Assembly: GCF_000186345.1 (NCBI RefSeq) | Contig: NC_014962.1 | Span: 4,430,450 to 4,494,449, forward strand | Direction: 5' to 3' | DNA: 64,000 bases | DNA from: Isosphaera pallida ATCC 43644 | GTDB taxonomy: Bacteria; Planctomycetota; Planctomycetia; Isosphaerales; Isosphaeraceae | In this document: one piece after another, positions 9,539 to 63,576 of the stretch | Position numbering within the stretch: the stretch's first letter is position 1 | How the letters are laid out: each line of letters starts with the position of its first letter | Position numbers and translations under genes: made by a program | Notes under the pieces: model-generated | Databases searched by the model: none | What the model was told of the DNA's origin: nothing | The model's input: only the letters and a program-made list of their open reading frames with translations

Positions 9539-9751
9539 CCGACTCGTCCATCCGACCACCGCGCCGACAGGTTGAAAACCACAGGTCCACACGGCGCAAC
9601 CCGTCACTAAAAACATCCGGCGTCCCATCATACGCATCATAAATGAAACGAGCAATCGATGAAACCCAGATGACGCGACCACGCTCCGAATCCGAGCGGA
9701 GTCCAAGGGCGCTTGCGATTGGGAATCAGTCACCGCGAAGGAGTCGCTTTC

Positions 9752-12700
9752 ATGTCGGACTCAACCTACCTGGTCATACAGGGACGCCAAGGACTGGCCG
9801 ACCGGGTTGTGGCATTGGATCGTCCCACGATTCGGATTGGCCGAAGCGCCGAATGCGAGGTTCGGCTGCGGGACTCGCCCTTGGCGGAGGTTCAGGTTCT
9901 GATTCGTCGTCGAGGCGTAGACTGGATCGCTCAGCCGGTTGGTCCATCGGGTCGAGTCTGGCTGGGGGGACGGCCCTTGGAACGCCAGGAGCGTTGGACG
10001 CCCAACCTTCCGCTCAAAGTCGGTTCCCATCAGCTAAGCCTGCGAGTTGAACGCGCCGCCAACACACCGGCGGGGTCGTTCGATCACCCTATTGACCTCA
10101 ACGTGGAATCGTCCTCTGAACCCACCCTCATCTTTCCTGCCGCCGATCGACCACGCTCGACCGCCTTGCGAGCAGGCGCGGGGATCTCGATCTCCAAAGG
10201 GTCCCTCTTCTCGTCGCGTGGCTCCGCCTCCACGGCAGAACGGACCACGATGCCCACTGGATGGGCCAACCGCTGGCGCGCGCTGGGTCGAATCGAACGC
10301 GACGCCGCGGACCGCCCCGAGCCAACGTCCACCATCAAAAACGAAGTCCCGGTCAGCCGCCCTCCCGTCGCGCCGCCGACACCTTGTCCGCCTTCCCCCT
10401 TCGCTTGCGGGTCCACTTCCGTTTCGGGTTCTGGTTCCAGACCACGCCCCACGGGTCCGTCCTTCGCCGCATCCGACTTGCCGGCGTCTTCAGTCGCTCC
10501 CAGCGTGGCCGTCGCGCCACCAACACCAACTTCAATTTCCTCTGCCAAAATCGCTCCGGCGTTGAGTCCAACCGCGATTCGTCCCCCTCATCTTAAAACG
10601 CTGGAGCGTCCCACTGCGACGCTGGACTCCCCCTCGCGGCGGCCCTCGCATTTGCACGAGCCTCTCAACACAGTTCCGGTCGTGGCCCCCCCCGCCCCCC
10701 CTGTTCCGCCCCACCCCAAGGCGGCGGTCGGCGGATCGTCGGCGGCTTCGTCACCCGATCGCGGCCGTTCGGTCACGCTCGAACGGACTCCCCCGATCCC
10801 ATCCCCCCCTCCCCTGCCGCCGACGCCCTCCCCCATCCCGGTCACCCGTCCAGCAACGCCGCCGCCCCACGGCAAACTCCAAGGGAATCGCGTTCCGGCG
10901 CATCCTATCTGGCCCTCGAATCCACCGATTTCCCGAACCGCGCGGATCCAACCCGAACCGCCCCCGATCGCTTCCCCCCCGATTCCCAGGCCGCCGATTC
11001 CAACCACACCGCGCGAAAAGAGCCGCGACCCAAAAGACACCGACTCGCTTCCTATCCCCCCCTCGACCCTCAACGGGAACGCAACCACCGCGGCCGTCTC
11101 GTCCACGGGTTCGGCTTTGGCTGATACGATCAACCCGCCGACTCAAGAGGGAGCCTCGCCTCGGCGCGAGACGCTCCCCGCCGACCCAACCACCGCGCTC
11201 GTTAATGCACTTCCTCCCCTTCCTGACGACCCCGCTAGCCCGGCCACAACGCCACCCGAGACGGCGATCGACTCAAACCCCGTCCAGACCCACGAACCAG
11301 ACTTCACCACGGAACCGGCGGTTCCGGCGGAACCAACCCGACTGCTAAAAGCCTTCGCCCGCCGCTGGCGCGACTTCGCTACCCGTTCGCGCGTTTGGTC
11401 GCGGCCAGCCGATGCCCAGACCCAAACCTTGGCGACAACAACGCGGTCAGCCGCCGTCCCCGCCGAACCTCCGGCTATCTCCCCCCCGGCGGTTACGCCA
11501 ACGAACACGGCTCCCGTCGCGCCCGACCTTGAGGAGCCGATCTCTAACCCCACGGCCGCTCGCACGGTTGAGCCATCCGTGGACGAGCAAACCAGACGCC
11601 CATCACGACGTCGGGTCGCTCCCGCTCCCTCCCGCGTTCCGCAACGGGATTCTCACCCGCGAACTCGCAGCACGGCGGAGCCCAAACCACGCCCCCGGAT
11701 CGGTACAGGAGCCGAGGCTGAACTGCCCAGCGCCCGCGAGATTCTGGCAGCGTGCGGTCTAGAACATGCCCCGCGACGTCCCCGGGCCCTCATTCACGAC
11801 CCCAGTGTGTCGGTGTCTCGAGTGAAAATGGTCGCACCGATCGAACCCACCCCCTCGGACGCCCCGGAATGCTGGACGCCGCCCCTATCTGGGGCAGTGA
11901 CCTGGGCCGGCTTGGTCACGACGGCGGTTCTGGGATTGGGCGCGGTTCTGCTGACCACCGCCCAAGCACTGGTCCAGCGCGACGCAAGAGTGATCGCCAA
12001 CGCGCTGAGCCGACCTGATGGTCCCCTTTTCGGTCCTGCCCTTCTGTTAGAGATGGAGGCATGCCAACCGCCTCGGGGCATCTGGTGGCTCGATCGAGCC
12101 GACTCGGTCTATCGTCACGCCGCCGCCCTGGTTTTGGCGCGTCCGGGTTCGCCGCCCCTGGAGCAGGTGGAGGCATTGCTGTTCCAAGCAGGCCGCATCG
12201 CTCCAACCCACCCCGGCGTAAGGTTGGCGAAGGTCAGCCGAATGAACTTCCCGGGCTCGGATTCCCCCACCCCCATGCCGATCCCCGACACCCTCTTGGA
12301 CACTTTGCCCATCCAACCACGCGACCCCTCAGCCCTCACCTGGGTGGCCCAACGTTTGTGGCGTCAAGGTCGGGAGCGGGAGGCCGCCCGCGCCTTCCGC
12401 GAGGCTCTGGAGTTGGTGGTTCGCTCCGATTTGACCGGTCGAGAGCGGGAGGACCTCCCCGAACGGGACGGACCTCGGTTTGACGAGGATCCGACGGTCC
12501 GACGCTTCGAGCTGCCTGGTGAAGGAGCCTGCCGCGCGATTGTCTCGCTGCTGCTAGACAGCCACAGCCCACCGGATCGGTCCGCCAACGCCAACGCCAA
12601 CGCCTCCAGCAGCTCGAACACCAGACGCGACGCCTCAGCGAGCCATTGGCGCGCAGCCATGCCTCGGCACGCGGTCGTCTGGCTGGCCGCCGGCAAGGAA

Positions 12701-13102
12701 CTGCGAGGACGAGGCGATCCCCAAGCCGCCGAGGTCTTTGAAGAAGCAGGACGGCTGGGACGCGACGAACCCCTCAGCGGCTCCTCCAAGGCGGTCCACC
12801 ACGCCGCCGCCGCCGAGGCTCTGGCAATGGTCCGACGCTTCGAGGAGGCCGAGACGCTGTATCGCCTGGCCCTCAAGGAAACCACCCACGACGCGATTCG
12901 ACGCTCCTGGTCCTACAACCTGGCCGACATCTACTCCCGACTCAATCAAGAGGACAACCGTATGCGGGCCCTGGCCGCAGCGCGGGGACGCAACCTCAAT
13001 GAGACAATCACCCGCCGCGCCATCGAAGCCGAGCGTCAAACCCTGCCAAGGGGCGGGCTGGGAATGGCCGATCCCCCCTTCCGAGGCACGCCGTCCCGAT
13101 GA
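9752..13102 (+). CDS. Large FHA-domain membrane protein with Pro-rich linker and TPR-like C-terminus
   Basis: The product has 1116 residues. Residues 1-95 form an N-terminal FHA-type fold (TIRIGRSAECEVRL). The serine/histidine positions that bind phosphothreonine are not kept: the segment after the GRS reads LAEVQVLI with no histidine. A proline/serine/threonine-rich region of about 600 residues follows, then one membrane segment near 714-740. The C-terminal ~350 residues contain helical repeats resembling TPRs (for example FEEAETLYRLALKET). The start at 9752 is chosen because an AAGGAG lies about 10 bases upstream; the frame itself opens 13 codons earlier. It sits inside the EPS block between the Wzy-like gene and exosortase. 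Function unknown; a scaffold for envelope assembly is inferred. Confidence 0.75.
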   Translation: MSDSTYLVIQGRQGLADRVVALDRPTIRIGRSAECEVRLRDSPLAEVQVLIRRRGVDWIAQPVGPSGRVWLGGRPLERQERWTPNLPLKVGSHQLSLRVERAANTPAGSFDHPIDLNVESSSEPTLIFPAADRPRSTALRAGAGISISKGSLFSSRGSASTAERTTMPTGWANRWRALGRIERDAADRPEPTSTIKNEVPVSRPPVAPPTPCPPSPFACGSTSVSGSGSRPRPTGPSFAASDLPASSVAPSVAVAPPTPTSISSAKIAPALSPTAIRPPHLKTLERPTATLDSPSRRPSHLHEPLNTVPVVAPPAPPVPPHPKAAVGGSSAASSPDRGRSVTLERTPPIPSPPPLPPTPSPIPVTRPATPPPHGKLQGNRVPAHPIWPSNPPISRTARIQPEPPPIASPPIPRPPIPTTPREKSRDPKDTDSLPIPPSTLNGNATTAAVSSTGSALADTINPPTQEGASPRRETLPADPTTALVNALPPLPDDPASPATTPPETAIDSNPVQTHEPDFTTEPAVPAEPTRLLKAFARRWRDFATRSRVWSRPADAQTQTLATTTRSAAVPAEPPAISPPAVTPTNTAPVAPDLEEPISNPTAARTVEPSVDEQTRRPSRRRVAPAPSRVPQRDSHPRTRSTAEPKPRPRIGTGAEAELPSAREILAACGLEHAPRRPRALIHDPSVSVSRVKMVAPIEPTPSDAPECWTPPLSGAVTWAGLVTTAVLGLGAVLLTTAQALVQRDARVIANALSRPDGPLFGPALLLEMEACQPPRGIWWLDRADSVYRHAAALVLARPGSPPLEQVEALLFQAGRIAPTHPGVRLAKVSRMNFPGSDSPTPMPIPDTLLDTLPIQPRDPSALTWVAQRLWRQGREREAARAFREALELVVRSDLTGREREDLPERDGPRFDEDPTVRRFELPGEGACRAIVSLLLDSHSPPDRSANANANASSSSNTRRDASASHWRAAMPRHAVVWLAAGKELRGRGDPQAAEVFEEAGRLGRDEPLSGSSKAVHHAAAAEALAMVRRFEEAETLYRLALKETTHDAIRRSWSYNLADIYSRLNQEDNRMRALAAARGRNLNETITRRAIEAERQTLPRGGLGMADPPFRGTPSR

Positions 13103-48445: not shown

Positions 48446-49474
48446 ATGTCGGATTCCCAGTCCGTCCCTCGTCCTCCCCGCGCTGCGTTGCGCCGATTTT
48501 CCTACCCCCTGGCGTGGAGTTCAGCGGGACTGGTCGGAGGCCTTGGTCTCGTGGCGTTCGCCTCCTGGGCCTTCACGCCCAACCTCGAAGATTCCAACGG
48601 TTCCAATTCCTTCGCCACCACCCTCCCGCCCAACCCATCCTCCTCAACCCCGACCAACGACTCAACACCGGCTGCCGTCCCCCTTGTCTGGCCCGAGACC
48701 ATCCAACAAGGCGACCACGCCAAACGCCTCCTGTTGGCCATTCTTGAAGAAGTCGAACGCCGTCTCCAATCCTACCCGGGCCATCGCGCGCAGTTCAAAC
48801 GCCTGGAGCGCATTCATGGTCAGCTGGGTCCGTGGCAAACCATCGAACTCAAAGTGCTTCACAATCCTCTCTCGGTTTATATGAAGTTTCTTGAGCCGGA
48901 TGACGGCAAAGAAGTGCTCTACTCCCAAGGACGGTTCGACAACCACTTGATCGCCCACCCCGGCGGTATGGCCCGCCTTTTGACACCTCGCCTCAAACTC
49001 GACCCAAACGGCCCCCTGGCCATGGCCGAGAACCGTCACCCCATCACCTCGGCTGGTCTACTCAACCTGGTCCGACGCCTGATCCACTTTCGCCGGCTCG
49101 ACCTCAACCACCCCACGTCACATCTCCGGCTCGACCGTATCGAAACCCCTGACGGACAGATGGTGTTTCGTTCATGCCACCGTCATCTCAAGAGAACCGA
49201 TCAACATCCTTACTCCCGCAGTGAAATCTGGTACGACTCTGCGACCTGCCTCCCCATCCGGGTCGAGAATCACGACTGGCCCGCGGGGATCATTCTGGGC
49301 CACACCATTTCATCGCCCGCCGATCTTGGCGACCCGTTCGCCATCTTCGACGCCCCCGACAACGGCGAAACGCTGGTCGAAATCTACGAGTACGCGCATC
49401 TCGATTTTGAGACCCCGCTCACCCCTCTTGACTTCGACCCCGCCAACCCTGCTTATGGGTTTCGCCGATTCTGA
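48446..49474 (+). CDS. DUF1571 protein, exported
   Basis: A 342-residue protein with an N-terminal membrane segment or signal (SSAGLVGGLGLVAFASWAF, about 25-43), a Ser/Pro-rich linker, then the DUF1571 domain. Diagnostic stretches are VYMKFLEPDDGKEVLYSQG, AHPGGMARLLTPRLKLDPNGPLAMAENRHPI and SEIWYDSATCLPIRVE. GGGAG precedes the ATG by 9 bases. The family is typical of planctomycetes; its fold is related to outer-membrane lipoprotein-sorting-type proteins (recalled, not tested). Function unknown. Confidence 0.88.
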   Translation: MSDSQSVPRPPRAALRRFSYPLAWSSAGLVGGLGLVAFASWAFTPNLEDSNGSNSFATTLPPNPSSSTPTNDSTPAAVPLVWPETIQQGDHAKRLLLAILEEVERRLQSYPGHRAQFKRLERIHGQLGPWQTIELKVLHNPLSVYMKFLEPDDGKEVLYSQGRFDNHLIAHPGGMARLLTPRLKLDPNGPLAMAENRHPITSAGLLNLVRRLIHFRRLDLNHPTSHLRLDRIETPDGQMVFRSCHRHLKRTDQHPYSRSEIWYDSATCLPIRVENHDWPAGIILGHTISSPADLGDPFAIFDAPDNGETLVEIYEYAHLDFETPLTPLDFDPANPAYGFRRF

Positions 49475-52543: not shown

Positions 52544-53680
52544 ATGAGCATGGCGCGTCGCGCGGGGGCGCGGAGACCCTCGGACGATCCGGCCGTCGCC
52601 GGAGGCGATCCCGACATGGTGCGGACCGAGGCCGCCGCGTCGCAAGACCCCAGCCGCGACCGGATGGGAAAACTCGCCTTCTGGAAACCGAACCGCTCCA
52701 CGGACAAGGCAAGCGGTTCCCCAACGGCGTCCACCAGCAAGGAACCGGCCGGGGATCCCAACCGGACAGTCGGGGAGGAGCCCCTGGTGCGCCTTGTGGG
52801 CGAGACCGACTACGACCGGGTGACCTCGGGGATGATGGCGGCGATTTTCGCGGCAATGCTTGTGGTTGGCTGGCTGGCGGTGGTGTTTCTGACCGCTCCG
52901 AGTTTCCGTCCCCGCGCTTTGGCCGACATCACCATCATCGACGTAGCCGGTGGCGGCGGAGGGGTGCCTGACGGCGAACTCAACTCGGTCGAGTCGATCG
53001 ACGTGCCCAACGCCGAGGCCGCCGATCAAGCCTCCAACTCTGAACTCGACGCGGCGTTCTTTGAGGAACCTTCCCTCCAGATGATCCCCGAAGTCACCTT
53101 GGACGCGATCATCGACACCGCCGCCCAATCCACTGACCTGGCACCCGCTCAACGCACCGGCGGTACCGTCGCCACCGGCCCCCGCGCCAGTCGAATCGGT
53201 ACCGGGCGACCCGGCCTGGGCGATGGCACCGGCGATGGTAGCATTCCTTCCCACCTGCGTTGGAGCATCTTTTACCCCCCCGGCCAGTCTCCCGAGGAGT
53301 ACGCCCGCACCCTCGACCTTCTAGGGATCGAACTCGCGGTGATCCAGTCTGGCATCATCAACTACGCCTCCCAACTCTCCACCCCCACCCCTATCCGACG
53401 GGTCGGCAACGGTCTGGGGGAAACCCGGATGTATTTCCTCTGGCAAGGACAGGGGCGAAAACAGAACGATGTGGAATTACTCACCCGCGCCGGGATCAAC
53501 GTGGGGACCGGCAATATTCTCCAATTCATCCCCCCTGAGTTGGAACAACGCCTACTGCGGCTCGAACGCGACTATCGCGGCCTCAACCCCAACGAGATTC
53601 GCAAAACCCGGTTCAGCGTGACGATCGAAAACGGTCAGGTCCAGATCGCAGTCACCTCGCAGCTGCCTCTTCGCGGCTGA
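52544..53680 (+). CDS. Single-pass membrane protein, first of a four-gene envelope run
   Basis: A 378-residue protein of unknown family. Residues 1-90 are cytoplasmic and basic/acidic mixed. One membrane segment lies at 96-117 (MMAAIFAAMLVVGWLAVVFLTA). A short ITIIDVAGGGGG stretch, an acidic linker and a C-terminal alpha/beta domain follow (from about residue 265: HLRWSIFYPPGQSPEEYARTLDLLGIELAVI, then TRMYFLWQGQ). The layout (short cytoplasmic part, one helix, Gly-rich stretch, compact periplasmic domain) resembles TolA/TonB-like energy couplers only in outline; no sequence match is claimed. The start at 52544 is chosen over an in-frame codon 75 bases upstream. Confidence 0.65.
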   Translation: MSMARRAGARRPSDDPAVAGGDPDMVRTEAAASQDPSRDRMGKLAFWKPNRSTDKASGSPTASTSKEPAGDPNRTVGEEPLVRLVGETDYDRVTSGMMAAIFAAMLVVGWLAVVFLTAPSFRPRALADITIIDVAGGGGGVPDGELNSVESIDVPNAEAADQASNSELDAAFFEEPSLQMIPEVTLDAIIDTAAQSTDLAPAQRTGGTVATGPRASRIGTGRPGLGDGTGDGSIPSHLRWSIFYPPGQSPEEYARTLDLLGIELAVIQSGIINYASQLSTPTPIRRVGNGLGETRMYFLWQGQGRKQNDVELLTRAGINVGTGNILQFIPPELEQRLLRLERDYRGLNPNEIRKTRFSVTIENGQVQIAVTSQLPLRG

Positions 53681-53950
53681 ACGTCCGGCCAAACCGCCCG
53701 CCCCGGTCCCTTACCCCTCTCCACCCTCGACCTGGATCCTCCCTTCGGTTCGAGGAATTGGCCGTCGTCATCGCGGGCGTTCCCGCCGCGGCTGACGACT
53801 CGGCGGGTCTATTGGCTTCGCTTTCGCTAAGCCTCCCTCGTTCGCTTCTCCCCCGCGTCTCCTCGGCAACGGCAATTCGACGCCGCCCGGCGGCCTTCGA
53901 GCTCGCCTCACCCTTTGACCTGTTCTTCCGTGAGTGGGAACCCGCGACGC

Positions 53951-56900
53951 ATGGCGACCATTGAGATTCACGACAGCCGAGGAAGTGTCCAACGTTTGGA
54001 ACTCACCCCGGACCAAGTGATCTGGTTCGGCTCGGACCCCGGTTGCGACGTGAAACTACTCGGCCCGGGAGTGGCCCCCTACCACTTCCGGGTCCGTTCC
54101 AAAGCAGGCCGTTATCGAGTCGAGGTTGCTCCCGAAGCGCCTGAGGTCGAAGTCAACGGCCGCAAGACTCGCAAAGAGAAGCTTGACCGCGGCGACGAGA
54201 TCGCCTACGCCGGGACGCGGGTGTTCCTAGTGCAGGTGGACACAGCCCCGGTCCTCGCCCTCGATGACGACCCCGGATTCGCCGACGCGCCGCCCGCGTC
54301 GCCGTCACCGTCGGCGTCCCCCGTGGTGGCTCGAACCGCTTCGGCACCCGCTCAACCCCAGGCCACCCCGACCCAACCCACGCCTCCCACCAACCGCCGT
54401 CCTAAGAACCGGGACGAAGAGTCCGAAGAGGATGGTTGGGGATCTCTTGGCGGCCTCAGCGCTCAAGAAGCGGTCCCGGTCGCTCGGGCTAAAGCGGCAA
54501 CCTCCTTGTCGCCTCTGGGGCGGCTCAAACTCGGCGAGGAACGTCCGCCCGGTCAGGAACGCCTTCTGACCTCCCCCCTGGCTATTGGTCTGGCGGCGAC
54601 CCTAGCGCTTTTGGGAGCGGTCGGCTACGGCCTGAAAGTCCTCAACGACAAGAACACCCGCGACAACCTGTTCCTCCAGGCCGAAGAGGCGTACAAAACC
54701 AATGACTTCGCCGCCGCGATTGACTTCTATGACCAATTCCTAGCCTTCGCCCCCGAGGATGAGCGGGTGGGACGTGCCCGGGTGCAACGCGGCATGGCGA
54801 CCGTTCAAAAATTGACCTCCTCGGGTTCGGCCTCCTGGCTCGAAGCGCTGGAGACAATCCAAACCGTCCATCCCCAAATCAAGGCGATCCCCGAATTCGA
54901 AGACGCCCGAATCCTATTGGCGGAATTGACCTTGCGCACCGCGTCGGCCCTGGCCGAGCGGACCACCCGCTCCGGTAAGGCCGAGGATCTCGCCGTGGTC
55001 GAACGGGCCGTCGAACTGCACCGCGAGATCGCCCGCGAGGCGACCGCCCAGCAGATCGATCGCCTGCGGTTCCAACCCAAGTTGGAAGAGGCCAAAGCCG
55101 CCGTCGAGAAAGCCGGGATCAAGGCCCAACGTCTGGCGGCCATCGAACGCGCCCTCAAAGACGGCGACCCCGTGGCTGCTTACTCCCAGCGGGACGATCT
55201 GGTGCGACGCTACCCGGACCTCGCCTCCGACAAGGCGATCATGGCCCTTTTGGTCGAGGCCAACGACCTACTCAAGACCCGTACCAAGCTCGACACCCGC
55301 CGCGTTCCCGCCCAAACCGAGGAGCAGGCCCACCCACTCAACCCGCCTCTGAGCCTGGTGCTGCGCGACAATGCCGAGGACACCAAGTCCGACACCACCA
55401 ACCCCGGCCGGGTCGTCTTCGCAGTGGCCGAGGGAATCGCTTACGGCCTGGATGACGCCACCGGCCAGCCGCTTTGGCAACGGGTCGTGGGTCGAGACAC
55501 CCCGTTCCCCCCGGTCGCCCTGCCCGGCTCCCCTGCCTCCGCCATCCTGTTCGAGACGCAATCCAACCAGTTGGTCCGTGTCCATGCGCGGGACGGCGCG
55601 CTGATCTGGCGGCAGCCCCTAGGCGCGGAAATCGCCGCTCCACCTCTGGTGGCGGGCAACACCCTGATTCAACCCACCCGCTCGGGTGACCTCGTGCGCC
55701 TCAGTCTGGCTAACGGACACATCGTCGGTCGTCTCACCCTAGGACGTCCGCTGGACGTGACCCCCGCCACCGACGAAACAGGCCGCTATCTGTACGCGCC
55801 CGCCAACCAGGCCAATCTGTTCATCGTCGATCTCGACGGGTTCACCTGCGCTGAAGTCCTCTACCTGGGACACGGTCCCGGCGCGCTCAAAACCGCCCCG
55901 GTTCGAGCTGGCCCTTATCTGATCCTGCCCGAAAACCATCGTGAGGACCGCGGACGCTGGCGAGTTCTCCGCATCGAGTCCGACGGAGCGCGGCTCACCG
56001 AAATCCAAACAGTCGATCTGGGCGGCTGGACTTGGTACCCCCCCGCTTGGTCCGGCGCAGTGATCTGGTCCACCGACGACAAAGGCGGCGTGACCGCCTT
56101 CGCCCTCGGCGCGGCCGACCAGCCCAATCCGATCCGTAAAATCGCCGAACTGCCCCCCGAACAACGGGCCCCCGGCGCGGCGTTGGCGGTGACCCGCTCC
56201 GAAAAAGAGGTGTTTGTGGCAGCGAGTCGCTCTGGTCAATTCACGGTGGCGGCCGAACTCGGCCGGCTAGAACGAGGCTGGACGCTGGAGACCGCCACCC
56301 CGCCGGCGGCTCCCGTTCAACTCGGTGGCGGTTTGACCGACCCCATCGTCGTCTTCACCCTGGAATCGACCGTAGGCACCGGTGTAGATGTTCTAGGGGT
56401 CTCCTCCAAAACCGGGAAACCCCTTTGGAAGACCATCCTGGGAGCCGCTTGGCCGACTCCCTTGCGCGCAGGTCCCGATGGACGCCCCAGCACCGTGGAT
56501 CCCTCGGGACGCATCATCCCCTTCGAGGCAACCGACCTGGTGCAAGGCGGCTTCCGCATCCAACCGCCACCGCCCCCTCGCCCACCAGGTTCCAATCCTG
56601 AGAACGACGATCCCACCCAACCGCTTTGGAGCGTCGAGCCCCGAGGCACGGTCTGGATCGGTCGGCGTCGAGGCGACGATCGCCGTTACGCCCTCCTGAC
56701 CGATCAGGGACCAGCTCAATTCCTTACCCCCCCCGCCGCCCCCACTCAACCCCCCCTCCCCTGGCACGACGGCGAACTCGTGCCCGCGGCCGAAGGACGA
56801 GTCTTCTTTCACCCGGCCAACAGCGACGAATTCCGAGCCTGCACGTTGGTCGAACGTTACGACAAGGCGCAACCCGTGGTCTGGACCCGCCCGGTGCCTT

Positions 56901-57490
56901 TGCCCGGCCCTGGCGAGGCGGTCCTGTTCGCCGAACAGGCCGGGCTGCTGCGTCGAGTCGTCGCCGGCGAGGACGGCCTGCCCGTCGTGGAGGTGGCAGT
57001 CAACCTCAACCGCCCCCTGGCCAGCGACTGCGCTGCGATTGGCCAAGTGGTTTTGGCCATCACCAACGACCAAACCCTCCATGTTCGCAACGCGGCCGAC
57101 CTCGAACCGATCGCCAAGACCCCCCTGGAAGCCCCGCTCGCGGTCGGCCCCGCGGCCATCACCCCCGACCTGGCGATTGTGGCCGACGCCGCCGGCAATT
57201 TGCTGGCCTACGGCGGCGACGGCCAACGCCTCTGGACCACCAAGCTTCGCTCCGAACCGCCGGTTGGTCCCCCCGTTCGACTGGGCGGCGACACCGCCGA
57301 GTCCTCCGGCCTCTTGGTGGTTCTCGGACGCGACGGCGTTCTGCAGCGTCTCGACCCCGTCAACGGTGCGGTCGTCGATCGAATCGAACTCCAACTCCGA
57401 CCCGCCGGCAACCTCGTTCCCTCGTCCGACCCTGCCGGACTGGTCATTCCCATCGCCCCTGGATCGCTTCGGCTGCTGCCCCAACCCTAA
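53951..57490 (+). CDS. FHA-TM-TPR-PQQ-propeller protein
   Basis: A 1179-residue membrane protein. An FHA-like domain lies at 1-97 (WFGSDPGCDVKLLG, then APYHFRV), a Pro/Ser-rich linker to about 200, and one membrane helix at about 207-229. A TPR-like region begins at about 236 (LFLQAEEAYKTNDFAAAIDFYDQFLAFAPED). From about 490 to the end there are repeated propeller blades of the PQQ/BamB type (DDATGQPLWQRVVG, RDGALIWRQPLG, DPVNGAVVDRI). It likely senses a phosphoprotein inside and binds a large surface outside (inferred). The FHA phospho-binding arginine is replaced by Ser (GSDPG). The ATG at 53951 is chosen over a non-ATG codon 12 codons upstream. It follows the 52544 gene by 270 bases. Confidence 0.75.
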   Translation: MATIEIHDSRGSVQRLELTPDQVIWFGSDPGCDVKLLGPGVAPYHFRVRSKAGRYRVEVAPEAPEVEVNGRKTRKEKLDRGDEIAYAGTRVFLVQVDTAPVLALDDDPGFADAPPASPSPSASPVVARTASAPAQPQATPTQPTPPTNRRPKNRDEESEEDGWGSLGGLSAQEAVPVARAKAATSLSPLGRLKLGEERPPGQERLLTSPLAIGLAATLALLGAVGYGLKVLNDKNTRDNLFLQAEEAYKTNDFAAAIDFYDQFLAFAPEDERVGRARVQRGMATVQKLTSSGSASWLEALETIQTVHPQIKAIPEFEDARILLAELTLRTASALAERTTRSGKAEDLAVVERAVELHREIAREATAQQIDRLRFQPKLEEAKAAVEKAGIKAQRLAAIERALKDGDPVAAYSQRDDLVRRYPDLASDKAIMALLVEANDLLKTRTKLDTRRVPAQTEEQAHPLNPPLSLVLRDNAEDTKSDTTNPGRVVFAVAEGIAYGLDDATGQPLWQRVVGRDTPFPPVALPGSPASAILFETQSNQLVRVHARDGALIWRQPLGAEIAAPPLVAGNTLIQPTRSGDLVRLSLANGHIVGRLTLGRPLDVTPATDETGRYLYAPANQANLFIVDLDGFTCAEVLYLGHGPGALKTAPVRAGPYLILPENHREDRGRWRVLRIESDGARLTEIQTVDLGGWTWYPPAWSGAVIWSTDDKGGVTAFALGAADQPNPIRKIAELPPEQRAPGAALAVTRSEKEVFVAASRSGQFTVAAELGRLERGWTLETATPPAAPVQLGGGLTDPIVVFTLESTVGTGVDVLGVSSKTGKPLWKTILGAAWPTPLRAGPDGRPSTVDPSGRIIPFEATDLVQGGFRIQPPPPPRPPGSNPENDDPTQPLWSVEPRGTVWIGRRRGDDRRYALLTDQGPAQFLTPPAAPTQPPLPWHDGELVPAAEGRVFFHPANSDEFRACTLVERYDKAQPVVWTRPVPLPGPGEAVLFAEQAGLLRRVVAGEDGLPVVEVAVNLNRPLASDCAAIGQVVLAITNDQTLHVRNAADLEPIAKTPLEAPLAVGPAAITPDLAIVADAAGNLLAYGGDGQRLWTTKLRSEPPVGPPVRLGGDTAESSGLLVVLGRDGVLQRLDPVNGAVVDRIELQLRPAGNLVPSSDPAGLVIPIAPGSLRLLPQP

Positions 57491-57641
57491 ACTAAACAAT
57501 CCCCCGGCGAATCGTCGCCCCGTCCCCTCGCCCAGCGACGGCGATCCCTCGCTCGCCAACCACCACCAACCCAACGCCGGCCTTCTCCAACCCCACTCCA
57601 ACGTCGAATGGCGTTCGTTCCACTTCGGGGAGACCGCGACC

Positions 57642-60101
57642 ATGCCCGTTTGCTTGCCTCCCAGACCCCCGCGGGACTCAAGCCCTTGCCCGATCATCCC
57701 GGCCCTGACGGCCCTGCTCGCCCTCGTCGCAATCGCGGTCGGACCCGGCCTTGACCCGCTGGCCTCCAACGCTCAAGCACAAACCGCCTCGGCCGCCTCC
57801 GGTCCCCTCGATCTGATCACCGCTGAACCCTTCGACGAGTTGACACTGATTGACAACGTCACCGTTCGAATTGAACCGGTCTATCCCCGCCCCCTTCCCC
57901 CCTTCGACCTCGAGGAATACCGCCGCCTCCAACGCCGCAACCAAAACCTACCCGAAGCCCAACGCGTTCCCCTGCCCGACGTGAAACTCATCATCAGCCT
58001 CAAGGAAGGCGAGGTCCGCGATTTCGAGACCGACCGCACCAAGATCAAGCAACTGATCTACTTTGAAGACCGCATCCTCGACGAAGCGCGGAGTCGCCTT
58101 CGAGCCCGCGACTTTGCCCGTGCCTTTGAACTCTTGATGAGATTAAAACGGCTCGCGCCCAACTGGGAAGGCTTGGATCAGGTTTACAACCAACTGCTGT
58201 TCGAGGAAGGGGTGCAATGCGCCCGCACCAACCAACTTGACCGGGGAGTGCGGCTCCTGTTCGAGCTGCGGTCCCGCCAGCCGGATTACCCCGGTCTGCG
58301 CGACGAACTCGCCAACGCCTACCGAGTGCGGATCAGCCGCTTGTTGGAGGCGGAGGACTACGCCGAAAGCCGTCGCCTGCTGGAGTTCGCCCGCTCGATC
58401 GACCCCCAGGCCCCTCAGATCGCCGAAACCGAACAACGGTTTCTCAAACGCGCCCAGGAACTCGCCGCCAAAGCGCGGGGACTCACCGGCTTGGCCAAGC
58501 TGGACACCATCTCGCAAGCCCTAGAGCTGTGGCCCGACCTGGAGGGAGGACCAGAGCTGTTCCGGGAGGCTTTCGAGGTCGCGCCACTGTTGGACGTGCT
58601 GGTGATCGACCACCCCCGAATCATTACCCCGTTTCCGACCTCGCCGCCCGGTCAGCGGGTCGCTGACCTCCTCTATCGGCCTTTGCTGGCCGAAGCCAGC
58701 GAGGAAGCCGCCCGCGGCCAACGCGGCGACCAACTCGCCGAACTCGTCGAGAAGCAAGAAATCGGCCGCAAACTGCTCATCACGCTTCGATCCGGCCTGG
58801 AATGGTCCGACGGCCGGCGTCCCGTCAGTGCCGACGACGTGGCGATGGCGTTGGCCGATCTTGCTGATCCCACCCTCGGCGGTCCAGGCAATGCCCGCTG
58901 GGCGCGGATCTTCGAGCGCGCGGTGATCCTCAACCCCCGTCAGGTCGAACTCCGGTTGGCCCGGACTACCTTCAAGCCGGAATGGTGGCTCACCACCCGG
59001 ATTGGTCCGGCGCACTCCGACCGTTCCATCAAGGACGAGTCCCGTGTGGCCCTGTCGCGCCGCCCGCCGCCCATCACCAACGGCGTCTTCAAGCAAACCG
59101 CCCGCGACCTGGGGCTGCTCACCGCCGACGCCGCCACGCCGCCGCCGGGCACCCCAGCCCCCAAAATCGCCCGGGTGCGGGAAACCGTTGCTACCGACCC
59201 CGCCGAAGCCCTTGCCGCCTTGCAAACCGGCCGCGCCGTGCTGCTGGAACACCTCCCTCCCGACCTCACCACCGAAGTGGCCCAACATCCTCGACTTCGC
59301 CTGGGCACCTACGAGATTCCGGTGGTCCACCTGATCGCTCTGGACGGTCGCAACCCGGTGCTGCGCAACCGGACCCTGCGGCGCGGCATGTCCCTGGCGT
59401 TGGATCGAGCCAACCTCATGGAGGAAACGATCCTCCGGCGTCCCCGCGCCAACCGAGAACAACCAGCCGACGGGCCGTTCCCGACCGTCAGCTACGCCAA
59501 CGCCCCTCCAGATCAGGTCGATCCCCTCGAATACGACCCACTGCTGGCCAAGATGCTGGTGGCCGCGGGCAAACGGGAACTCGCCGGGCAAACTGTGCGG
59601 CTCACCCTGGAATATCCCGCCCTTCCCGAGGTCCGGGTGGTGATCCCCCGGATCGTGGAAGCCTGGGCTAAGACTGGGGTGCAGGTCACGCCCCTGGAAA
59701 AACCGTGGTCCGACCTCGAGGAACGCCTGGCTCGCGGCGAACGCTTCGACCTGGCCTACCGCGTAACCACCTGCCGCGACGCGATGTTCGACGCCGGCCC
59801 GATCCTCTGCCCCGGCTTCGACGCCCCCGATTCGACCGACGCCCTCCAGTCGGTCGTCAGTCCCCGGATCCTCCAGCTCCTCCTCACGCTAGAACAAGCT
59901 GGTGACTTGCCCACCGCCACCCAACTGGCCCAACGTCTCGACATCGAATGCCGCGACGAACTCGCGGTCCTTCCATTGTGGCAACTCAACCGCCACTATG
60001 CCTGGCATCAACGTCTGCTAGGGCCCCAACCCACCATGACCAGCCTCTACCAGGGTATCGCCACCTGGGAGGTCCAACCCTGGAACCCCCGCGAACGTTG
60101 A
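57642..60101 (+). CDS. Exported TPR protein fused to a family-5 solute-binding domain (OppA/DppA-like)
   Basis: An 819-residue protein with a signal peptide or anchor at about 18-47 (ending SNAQAQTASA). Residues 55-310 form an N-terminal helical part with TPR-like repeats (FARAFELLMRLKRLAPNW, DRGVRLLFELRSRQPDYPG). From about 325 the SBP_bac_5 domain can be recognised: LLITLRSGLEWSDGRRPVSADDVAMAL, then NPVLRNRTLRRGMSLALDRANLMEETIL. No ABC permease or ATPase lies nearby, so it may have left transport for a binding or scaffold role (inference). GGGGAG lies 9 bases before the ATG; the long upstream open frame overlaps the previous gene and is rejected. Confidence 0.78.
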   Translation: MPVCLPPRPPRDSSPCPIIPALTALLALVAIAVGPGLDPLASNAQAQTASAASGPLDLITAEPFDELTLIDNVTVRIEPVYPRPLPPFDLEEYRRLQRRNQNLPEAQRVPLPDVKLIISLKEGEVRDFETDRTKIKQLIYFEDRILDEARSRLRARDFARAFELLMRLKRLAPNWEGLDQVYNQLLFEEGVQCARTNQLDRGVRLLFELRSRQPDYPGLRDELANAYRVRISRLLEAEDYAESRRLLEFARSIDPQAPQIAETEQRFLKRAQELAAKARGLTGLAKLDTISQALELWPDLEGGPELFREAFEVAPLLDVLVIDHPRIITPFPTSPPGQRVADLLYRPLLAEASEEAARGQRGDQLAELVEKQEIGRKLLITLRSGLEWSDGRRPVSADDVAMALADLADPTLGGPGNARWARIFERAVILNPRQVELRLARTTFKPEWWLTTRIGPAHSDRSIKDESRVALSRRPPPITNGVFKQTARDLGLLTADAATPPPGTPAPKIARVRETVATDPAEALAALQTGRAVLLEHLPPDLTTEVAQHPRLRLGTYEIPVVHLIALDGRNPVLRNRTLRRGMSLALDRANLMEETILRRPRANREQPADGPFPTVSYANAPPDQVDPLEYDPLLAKMLVAAGKRELAGQTVRLTLEYPALPEVRVVIPRIVEAWAKTGVQVTPLEKPWSDLEERLARGERFDLAYRVTTCRDAMFDAGPILCPGFDAPDSTDALQSVVSPRILQLLLTLEQAGDLPTATQLAQRLDIECRDELAVLPLWQLNRHYAWHQRLLGPQPTMTSLYQGIATWEVQPWNPRER

Positions 60102-60190
60102 CCGCGCCCCGCTCCGTCCGCCAACCGGACAATCCCTGTCGCCCCCCCGCCGGCCCGTGTCCTGTGAGATCGAGATCGAGACCGCCCACC

Positions 60191-61954
60191 ATGCCCGCCG
60201 CCTTCCGCCCCCACATCGCCAACCCCTCGCGGCACCCCGCCTGGATCATCCCCCGCGCCCTGCGGCGTTGTTGGGCGATTGGCCCGGTCGTCCTGGCTGG
60301 AGCGCTGATGATGTGGAGTGTGGCCGCCCCCGTCCTTGCCACGCCGTCGAATCGGGCCATCCCTCCTCAGATAACCAGCCCCGCGCTCCAACCACCGGAG
60401 TCGGCCTCGGCGGACTCCTCCAGCGAGATGCCGATCAACCTCCGACCGTACCGTATCCGCGCCTGGATCAGCTTCGACCCGGCCCTGCGGTTCGGCCTGG
60501 CCCAACGTCGCCGCCTGCTTGACGACTGGATGAGCCAAATCGATCGCTTCATCGGATCCCCCTGGCAAGTCGTGGTCGATCCCGACCCCGGACCGCTCGC
60601 TGGTTACGACGATCTGGCCACCCTCGACCCCGCCCGGCTCGTTTGGTTCGCCCATCCTGCCTCCCCGGAATCCGACGTCGCGGCCAAAGCCGCTTCCGCC
60701 GATGGCCCCCCCCCAGTCGAACCCCAACCCACCCCCCCCCTCTGGTCGCAAGCGGCCGTTTGGGCCTCGGCGGACTCGGCCCAACGCCATGACCGCTTCG
60801 ATAAAATCTGGGTCATGCGAGCCGCGCCTCTCGGAGCGGGTCTGGGAATTGAAGCGCGGGAACTTGATTTGGCCACGGGACGCTTCGGTCCTGTTTTCCG
60901 GCGCTCCTGTCTTCAAATGCCCGATGCCGCCCGCGCTCTGATGAACGCCTCGGTGGCCATCTTCGCCCCCTTCGCTCAGGTCAAACGCCAACGTGGCGGC
61001 TCTGCGCTACTGACCATTCAAGCCGCTGGCATCACCCCAGCCAGCCCTTTGGGACGGTTCGTCACCCGCGGCACCCCGTTTCAACCCTTCCGCGTCTTCC
61101 TCAACCCCGACAAGTCGATCAAACAGATTCAAGAAATCCCCTATTCGTATCTGAATGTCGAACAGGTCGATTTCACCGGGGCGACCGCGAAGTCAGTCAG
61201 CGCCTTCGTCGATCCTCTCTCGGGCCGTTCGCGGACTCGCTTGAGCTTCGTGGGGCTGGGAGTCAAAGCCAATGACCAACCGACCCCAATCCAGTTCGTC
61301 GATCGCCAAAGCGGTCAACCCTTGGCCGGTTACAAGCTGCAAGCCCTCGACATCCAACGCGGCATCACCCAGCCAGTCGGCCAATCCCGACGCGACGGCA
61401 TCGTTCCGATCTCGCCCCGTCTCTTTCCCGGCCTCTGGCGGTTTCAGCTCGTCGCCGGCGAGGTCGAACCGTTGGCCGAATTCGTCCTCATCCCCGGCGA
61501 AACCCAAAATCTCCGCACCCTCAAAGTCGATCCCAAACTCGAAGCGATGGAAGTCCACGCGCGACTCAATCGAATGACCGACCGCATCGTCGATCTCGTC
61601 GCCCAACGCAACCGTCTCAAAACGCTGATGGACCTTCGTTTGGCCGAAGATCGCTACGACGAAACCCAAGCGCTGCTGGAGGAACTGGCCCAACTCCCCT
61701 CCCCCAAAACCTTCCGCGACGAACTCGCCCAACTCAAAGCCGAATGCCTCGAGCGTCAAAACCAGGAAAACAAGAAGCCGCCCACCCAGCGCCGAACGAT
61801 CCTCACCCGCATGGTTCAAAAACGGTTCATCGACGTGCAGGGTCTCATCGACTCCCACCTGAGCGACGCGCCCTTCGAGGAGTTGGCCGAACAACTCCAA
61901 GACCAACGCCGCGAAGCCCAACGCAAAGCCGACGTCAAAAAACGACGCGGTTGA
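60191..61954 (+). CDS. Exported hypothetical protein, last of the four-gene run
   Basis: A 587-residue protein of unknown family. A hydrophobic segment at about 30-52 (IGPVVLAGALMMWSVAAPVLA) is a likely signal peptide. The middle contains RIRAWISFDPALRFGLAQRRRLLDDWMSQIDRFIGSPW and a beta-rich block with SYLNVEQVDFTGATAKSVSAFVDPLSGRSRTR. The C-terminal ~120 residues are charged and helical, rich in Gln, Lys and Glu (LEELAQLPSPKTF, EELAEQLQDQRREAQRKA). Two runs of nine C (60706-60714 and 60732-60740) encode a proline-rich linker and are prone to slippage. The ATG at 60191 has only a weak ribosome binding site and lies 89 bases after the previous gene. Confidence 0.65.
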   Translation: MPAAFRPHIANPSRHPAWIIPRALRRCWAIGPVVLAGALMMWSVAAPVLATPSNRAIPPQITSPALQPPESASADSSSEMPINLRPYRIRAWISFDPALRFGLAQRRRLLDDWMSQIDRFIGSPWQVVVDPDPGPLAGYDDLATLDPARLVWFAHPASPESDVAAKAASADGPPPVEPQPTPPLWSQAAVWASADSAQRHDRFDKIWVMRAAPLGAGLGIEARELDLATGRFGPVFRRSCLQMPDAARALMNASVAIFAPFAQVKRQRGGSALLTIQAAGITPASPLGRFVTRGTPFQPFRVFLNPDKSIKQIQEIPYSYLNVEQVDFTGATAKSVSAFVDPLSGRSRTRLSFVGLGVKANDQPTPIQFVDRQSGQPLAGYKLQALDIQRGITQPVGQSRRDGIVPISPRLFPGLWRFQLVAGEVEPLAEFVLIPGETQNLRTLKVDPKLEAMEVHARLNRMTDRIVDLVAQRNRLKTLMDLRLAEDRYDETQALLEELAQLPSPKTFRDELAQLKAECLERQNQENKKPPTQRRTILTRMVQKRFIDVQGLIDSHLSDAPFEELAEQLQDQRREAQRKADVKKRRG

Positions 61955-62160: not shown

Positions 62161-63576
62161 ATGGCCTGCTCCCACTCCATCCACGACCTCCTCGCGGGTC
62201 GCGTTCCGTTCGAGAGTTCCGTTACAGTGCAGGGTTGGATCCGAACCCGCCGGGACTCCAAGGCCGGTCTCTCGTTCCTTCATGTGTCCGACGGCTCCTG
62301 CTTTGCGCCAATTCAAGTGGTCGCCCCGGCCAACCTCCCAAACTACACCACCGAAGTCGTCCGTCTCACCACTGGCTGCGCCGTGATCGCCCACGGCAAA
62401 CTCGTCCCCTCCCAAGGCAAGGGACAAACCCACGAAATCCAGGCCGATCGGATCGAGGTCGTCGGTTGGGTCGAAGATCCCGACACCTACCCTGTTTCAG
62501 CCAAACATCATACGTTTGAATACTTGCGCACCGTCGCCCACCTCCGACCCCGCACCAACACCTTCGGCGCAGTGGCGCGGGTACGTCATTGCCTTTCGAT
62601 GGCGGTCCACCGCTTCTTCCACGAACGCGGCTTTTTCTGGGTCCACACCCCCATCATCACCTCGTCGGACTGCGAGGGAGCCGGCGAGATGTTCAAAGTC
62701 TCGACGCTCGATCTGAACAATCCGCCACGCGACGCCCAAGGCCAGATCGACCACTCCCAGGACTTCTTCGGCAAACCGGCTCATTTGACCGTCTCGGGTC
62801 AACTCAACGTTGAAGCCTACTGCCTGGCGCTGTCCAAAGTTTACACATTTGGCCCCACCTTCCGAGCCGAAAACTCCAACACCACCAGACACCTCGCGGA
62901 GTTCTGGATGATCGAGCCGGAAGTCGCCTTCGCCGACCTCGCCACCAACGCGGACCTCGCCGAGGAGTTTCTCAAGTACCTCTTCCGCGCGGTGCTGGAG
63001 GAACGTGCCGACGACCTGGCCTTCTTCGCCGATCGCATCGACAAGCAATGTGTCAACCGTCTGGAGACACTGACCAACGCCCAATTCGAACGCATGGACT
63101 ACGCCGAAGCGATTCGCATCCTCGAAGACGCTCAAACTCGCAAGTCGGCCTCCTTCGAATTTCCCATTCACTGGGGAGCCGACCTCCAGTCCGAACATGA
63201 ACGCTACCTCACCGAGACCCATGTGGGCCGACCCGTGGTGGTCATGAACTACCCCAAACAGATCAAAGCGTTCTACATGCGCCTCAATGACGACGGCCGC
63301 ACCGTCGCTGCGATGGACGTGTTGGCCCCCGGCATCGGCGAAATCATCGGCGGCTCCCAACGCGAGGAACGGCTCGACGTGCTGGACACGCGACTCGAAG
63401 AATTGAACCTCCCCAAGGACGAGTATTGGTGGTACCGCGACCTGAGACGCTACGGTACCGTGCCTCACGCCGGTTTCGGCCTCGGCTTTGAACGAACCAT
63501 CCTCTACGCCACCGGCATGTCCAACATCCGCGACGTCATCCCCTTCCCCCGCACTCCTGGTCATGCCGAATTTTGA
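62161..63576 (+). CDS. asnS: Asparaginyl-tRNA synthetase
   Basis: Class II synthetase that charges tRNA-Asn in the cytoplasm. The 471-residue product has an N-terminal OB-fold anticodon domain ([26 protein letters not shown]). The catalytic domain has motif 1 around [18 protein letters not shown], motif 2 [22 protein letters not shown] and motif 3 [42 protein letters not shown] and the [10 protein letters not shown] segment separate it from AspS. The start at 62161 gives the normal family length; the 31 in-frame codons upstream are discounted. It follows the four-gene envelope run by 206 bases and is probably independent. Confidence 0.97.

Follow-up and report, generated by a model that had tools for sequence, protein, structure and literature searches.

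Four adjacent genes on the plus strand occupy positions 52544-61954 of the 64,000-nucleotide stretch of DNA from the hot-spring bacterium Isosphaera pallida analysed here (the window), at the place where the original prediction had put them. All four are real open reading frames with high third-position GC: g1 (52544-53680, 378 aa), g2 (53951-57490, 1179 aa), g3 (57642-60101, 819 aa) and g4 (60191-61954, 587 aa), separated by gaps of 270, 151 and 89 bases. Long reading frames antisense to coding genes, at 56393-57769, 58521-59591 and 62497-63564 on the minus strand, are probably a by-product of high-GC codon use and not genes. The run is followed by an asparaginyl-tRNA synthetase-like (asnS-like) gene starting at 62161, named from our own reading of its sequence, and a gene for a DUF1571 protein lies upstream on the plus strand (48446-49474; Pfam E 5.8e-75). 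The flanks of the run in I. pallida, DDAH-like and asnS-like, are not common to the loci of its relatives. Elsewhere in the window, a second long plus-strand reading frame (9713-13102) carries a weak FHA match at about 9830-9991 (22.4 bits); the genome has 21 FHA matches in all, this one included.

The product of g1 had been described as a single-pass protein, and one transmembrane stretch, at residues 98-116, is indeed found. Its predicted layout comprises a transmembrane helix at about residues 89-117, a disordered Gly/Ala-rich linker at about 118-230 and an alpha/beta domain at about 236-378, which AlphaFold models with a pLDDT mostly above 90 and a single dip to about 77. This is the arrangement of single-pass transducers, with an N-terminal transmembrane helix, a flexible linker and a periplasmic C-terminal domain, and invariant residues are present in an alignment of 47 homologues. 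On the basis of the model, g1 is a candidate force transducer of the inner membrane. The protein has no match to TonB_C (PF03544), its aligned transmembrane region contains any His in just 2 of the 47 sequences, the conserved SHLS-type His of TonB and TolA being absent, and neither a Pfam match nor a clear fold match to vWA was obtained. Foldseek and VIA returned weak matches only for the C-terminal domain; TonB and vWA are missing from those lists, which we do not count against them. Neither g1 nor g4 has a family name in Pfam or NCBIfam.

The second protein, g2, combines a cytoplasmic FHA-like domain, a transmembrane segment at about 210-228, a periplasmic helical, TPR-like region and a BamB-like PQQ propeller (PQQ_2/BamB, E 5.9e-20). 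Thus, the FHA and propeller assignments of the original prediction stand, while its TPR region appears in Pfam only as a YfiO-like stretch below the cut-off. The FHA match is itself weak (22.4 bits against a cut-off of 20.7), and the protein also matches the YscD cytoplasmic domain at 23.3 bits, below the cut-off of that family. FHA domains contact phosphothreonine through the Arg of a GR motif and the Ser of an SxxH motif. Among 74 alignable FHA-type g2 sequences, the Arg is present in five, none of them among the Isosphaeraceae sequences aligned, and the Ser in none. Because both residues are missing, the proposal that this domain is a phospho-sensor is unsupported, and we have set it aside.

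Among loci, the periplasmic part of g2 is constant and the cytoplasmic head is variable. The FHA head occurs in the Isosphaeraceae and in many other loci; elsewhere g2 bears a small STPK-like helical head, the same domain that precedes the kinase in kinase-bearing versions, and in L199, L200, L213, L215 and L218 there is an acidic N-terminus only. Three orthologues (L109:10110-14600, L166:8287-12903 and L178:12517-17010) are Ser/Thr kinase-TM-TPR-PQQ fusions with a complete kinase (E about 1e-48), and the gene at L107:11511-16115 resembles a decayed form of such a kinase fusion. Since these three carry a complete kinase in the place of the FHA domain, a signalling role for g2 is plausible. One could extend this to the whole group of genes and regard it as a sensor, in which g2 reads the periplasm through its propeller, signals through its head and is supplied by the other proteins with ligands or stress signals. 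The fused kinases and the STPK-like N-terminal domains of other g2 proteins favour such a sensor, but the head is replaced or reduced elsewhere, the FHA domain is without its phosphothreonine-binding residues, and both g1 and the motor described below would be left unexplained, which makes this reading improbable.

The solute-binding domain attributed to g3 is confirmed as SBP_bac_5 (Pfam, E 3.6e-28) in an exported protein with a signal-like N-terminus, with matches in the PDB to family-5 binding proteins down to E 2.8e-20. The TPRs said to be fused to it have no Pfam match, although the N-terminal half appears helical-repeat-like in our own reading of the sequence. The relatives of g3 are peptide-, nickel- and opine-binding proteins; across the class, the motifs of its binding domain are poorly kept. 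The last protein, g4, is exported, as had been proposed. Its predicted structure consists of a two-domain region resembling FlgT and the N-terminal fold of TolB (residues 84-360), a transthyretin/CnaB-like domain (361-450; Z 9.7) and C-terminal helices (450-587). Foldseek matches the first region to FlgT, the Vibrio flagellar H/T-ring protein, at E 7.6e-8 and 2.5e-7, and part of it to TolB at E 4.5e-5, whereas VIA gives Z 9.1 over 197 residues for FlgT but with an rmsd of 8.5. We take the likeness to FlgT as a lead only, because the match spans two domains with a high rmsd. In contrast to the predicted fold, the sequence gives no match to FlgT: Pfam FlgT is found in 0 of the 32 sequences of the g4 alignment, and g4 matches no solved structure at the sequence level. 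Moreover, g4 has extra C-terminal domains, and I. pallida, which moves by gliding, has no flagella (PMC3072084).

Gene order in relatives had been named beforehand as a check that could overturn the grouping of these genes. A search with g3 gave matches in 42 of 45 Isosphaerales genomes, and of the 34 Isosphaeraceae loci read around these matches, 28 show g1, g2, g3 and g4 in that order, so the proposed refutation fails. The other six have g3-g4 alone at the g3 site, and in four of them (L132-L135) g1 and g2 lie elsewhere in a block with a further gene, g0, at about 25 kb from g3-g4 in two of these four genomes. In most Isosphaeraceae loci g0 is upstream of g1, and downstream of g1 one finds g2 in 19/19 and exbB in 0/19. 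Four-base stop/start overlaps, as in translationally coupled operons, are common at g0/g1, g2/g3 and g3/g4 in Isosphaeraceae loci, with starts picked automatically. Dozens of genera show the block families in this same order, far more than chance would give, and the genes do belong together. That separate genes, perhaps with general housekeeping roles, merely happened to stay adjacent would agree with the gaps in I. pallida and with terminator and promoter scans that were uninformative; however, the order is kept in other families as well as in about 20 genera of the Isosphaeraceae, while the flanking genes are not, which refutes this explanation and leaves it hardly any probability.

The comparison also brought out what the original prediction had missed, namely that the block is incomplete in I. 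pallida: its class-wide form also holds ExbB-ExbD-ExbD and a toroid-like protein. Outside the Isosphaeraceae, the typical arrangement in most of the class Planctomycetia, Gemmataceae excepted, is g0-g1-exbB-exbD-exbD-g2-g3-g4. Among non-Isosphaeraceae loci, 34 extend 7.5 kb or more beyond g1, and in 25 of these exbB follows g1; 32 extend 9.8 kb beyond g1, and 25 of them go on to show g2, g3 and g4 in that order. The ExbB and the two ExbD proteins encoded between g1 and g2 carry the usual TPM(I/V)D transmembrane motif. In Rhodopirellula baltica, the exbB and exbD genes RB12053 and RB12055, which may belong to this block, are reported to be induced by high salinity (PMC2754498).

The g1 profile matches 140 of 158 Planctomycetia genomes, and in a phylum-wide sample of 246 genomes all 16 of its matches fall inside the class. 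The g4 profile has the same range, with one weak match outside, and judged by these profile searches both families are essentially confined to the class Planctomycetia. The family f88, which we take to be the Gemmataceae (family names of the numbered genomes being inferred from named relatives and general knowledge), has g4 in 0 of 11 genomes and weak g1-like genes only, without the block; the system is therefore not indispensable to the class. Such weak g1-like genes without the block occur in L097-L100, L111, L112 and other f88 and f91 loci. In L101 one of them stands beside divergent exbB/exbD genes, which suggests that proteins of the g1 type form a broader family of partners for ExbB motors. 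In a few loci (L199:5743-7617, L115) g1-type genes form a tandem pair.

The components absent from the I. pallida block are present elsewhere in its genome. An exbB-exbD-exbD trio about 100 kb from g1-g4 (C2:4584127-4586396), with the candidate exbB at C2:4585773-4586396 adjoined by two exbD genes, is the best match to the ExbB, ExbD and ExbD models of the block (182, 102 and 100 bits), whereas other I. pallida ExbB proteins score at most 79 bits; the genome has seven exbD genes. With a profile of the block ExbB, 39 of 45 Isosphaerales genomes give a single outstanding match of 176-205 bits, all others scoring at most 116, and for this reason we consider the motor to be unlinked and not lost. 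In a phylogenetic tree the I. pallida candidate and two paralogues are separated (100/99), but the branch of the candidate is too long for the tree to serve as proof of orthology, and we used the bit-score separation in the 45 genomes instead. The exported protein g0 has an I. pallida orthologue with squalene-cyclase-like and HEAT repeats (C2:1040839-1042329, E 1e-129), likewise unlinked to g1-g4. Since the blocks of relatives include exbB-exbD-exbD and g0, the four genes of I. pallida are, from this genomic comparison, the detached half of an eight-gene, probably proton-driven trans-envelope apparatus. Because the motor lies outside the I. pallida block, the case for motor coupling in this species rests on its relatives.

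Several known envelope systems resemble the block in kind, and none is the same in composition. Like Tol-Pal (TolQRAB-Pal-CpoB), it has an ExbB/TolQ-type channel with ExbD/TolR-type partners, a single-pass linker protein, a beta-propeller protein and a helical-repeat protein, and g4 recalls the N-terminal fold of TolB. In contrast to Tol-Pal, TolB_N, TolA and Pal genes are not recognised in the block, the propeller is membrane-anchored and BamB-like, and there are a second ExbD and solute-binding and toroid-like proteins. TolB_N (PF04052) was found in 0 of 59 class genomes, and no OmpA/Pal gene is among the four window genes scanned with Pfam. The Ton system (ExbB-ExbD-TonB) shares the ExbB/ExbD motor with the block, and the topology of g1 is TonB-like; however, g1 is without TonB_C and the transmembrane His, and no TonB-dependent receptor is recognised in the block. 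TonB_C (PF03544) occurs in 12 of 59 class genomes, none of them among the 15 Isosphaeraceae, and has no match in the I. pallida genome; an earlier survey had likewise recorded neither TonB nor TonB-dependent receptors in this species (PMC3422733).

These comparisons bear on a role in uptake, in which the motor and g1 would power the passage of peptides or polymers through the outer membrane into the periplasm. There g3 would accept them by its solute-binding domain, with no ABC transporter dedicated to the task. The kinship of the SBP_bac_5 domain of g3 and the presence of ExbB/ExbD neighbours, which are typical of Ton uptake, are what one would expect in that case. On the other hand, the block lacks TonB_C as well as ABC genes, in line with the earlier remark that g3 has no ABC transporter (there are no permease or ATPase genes among g0-g4 and exbBDD), the survey just cited recorded neither of the Ton components in I. 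pallida, the binding-domain motifs of g3 are poorly kept, and the propeller and the FlgT-like protein would have no explanation. We therefore regard uptake as unlikely.

A parallel in the make-up of the motor is offered by Myxococcus, where AglR-AglQ-AglS consists of one TolQ/ExbB and two TolR/ExbD proteins and GltG, a cytosolic FHA and transmembrane protein, binds AglR in two-hybrid tests (PMC3169522). Both AglRQS-Glt (gliding) and AglRQS-Nfs (spore coat) share with the block one ExbB, two ExbD, an FHA-TM protein and helical-repeat partners. It is tempting to speculate that the block is a surface machine of this kind, its motor driving the FHA-TM-periplasmic protein and so moving surface polymers or the cell; gliding of I. 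pallida without flagella and a weak NCBIfam GltG match on g2 (E 0.0076, far below the cut-off) point in that direction. However, g2 ends in a PQQ propeller and not in the TonB-like domain of GltG, no relatives of GltD/E/C or GltH were identified and other components are not common to both, part of the class has other domains in place of FHA, the block is class-wide and includes many species not known to glide, and I. pallida also bears numerous pili, all of which makes such a machine quite doubtful. Finally, force transducers with a vWA fold and an SHLS/His motif have been proposed in the PVC group, planctomycetes included, where a single-pass transducer gene and a TPR gene adjoin a TolQ-like and two unlike TolR genes (PMC12204202). 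The block likewise combines a TolQ-like and two TolR-like proteins with a single-pass candidate transducer and a TPR-like protein, but g1 has no recognised vWA match and no such His. ExbB/TolQ and ExbD/TolR genes are linked to the block in most non-Isosphaeraceae loci, and unlinked but retained in I. pallida. We found no published description of the block or of its gene combination, as the original prediction had anticipated, and the main text of the P. limnophila essential-gene paper makes no mention of Exb, Tol, PQQ or FHA.

We favour the reading, with a probability of roughly 0.6, that g1-g4 encode the inner-membrane and periplasmic components of a trans-envelope apparatus of the class Planctomycetia driven by an ExbB-ExbD-ExbD motor, which fits the earlier view that these proteins act in the envelope. 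In this apparatus, the TolQ-TolR-like proton channel would be the power source, and proton flow through it would move g1, whose transmembrane helix would sit beside the motor. The long flexible linker would carry the C-terminal domain of g1 across the periplasm, where it would pull on or remodel a periplasmic or outer-membrane assembly of g2, g3, g4 and g0. Within such a complex, g2 would contribute an inner-membrane-anchored propeller and, on the cytoplasmic side, a regulatory head; g3 would serve as a substrate- or peptide-binding scaffold and g4 as a FlgT/TolB-N-like adaptor. The most likely output would be mechanical coupling of the inner and outer membranes, either as Tol-Pal-like upkeep or as transport of envelope material. 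The stronger version, that this is a new class-ancestral proton-driven machine replacing Tol-Pal and Ton, with g1 as a new transducer family and g2 as a propeller receptor with a kinase- or FHA-swapped head, we hold at slightly under even odds.

The periplasm of planctomycetes is enlarged, and budding in these bacteria proceeds without FtsZ. The conserved, motor-linked block suggests that a bridge between their membranes exists and is made of different parts. Moreover, g1 adds a candidate transducer family to those of the ExbBD, TolQR and AglRQS systems, and the block supplies eight named knock-out targets in tractable planctomycetes.
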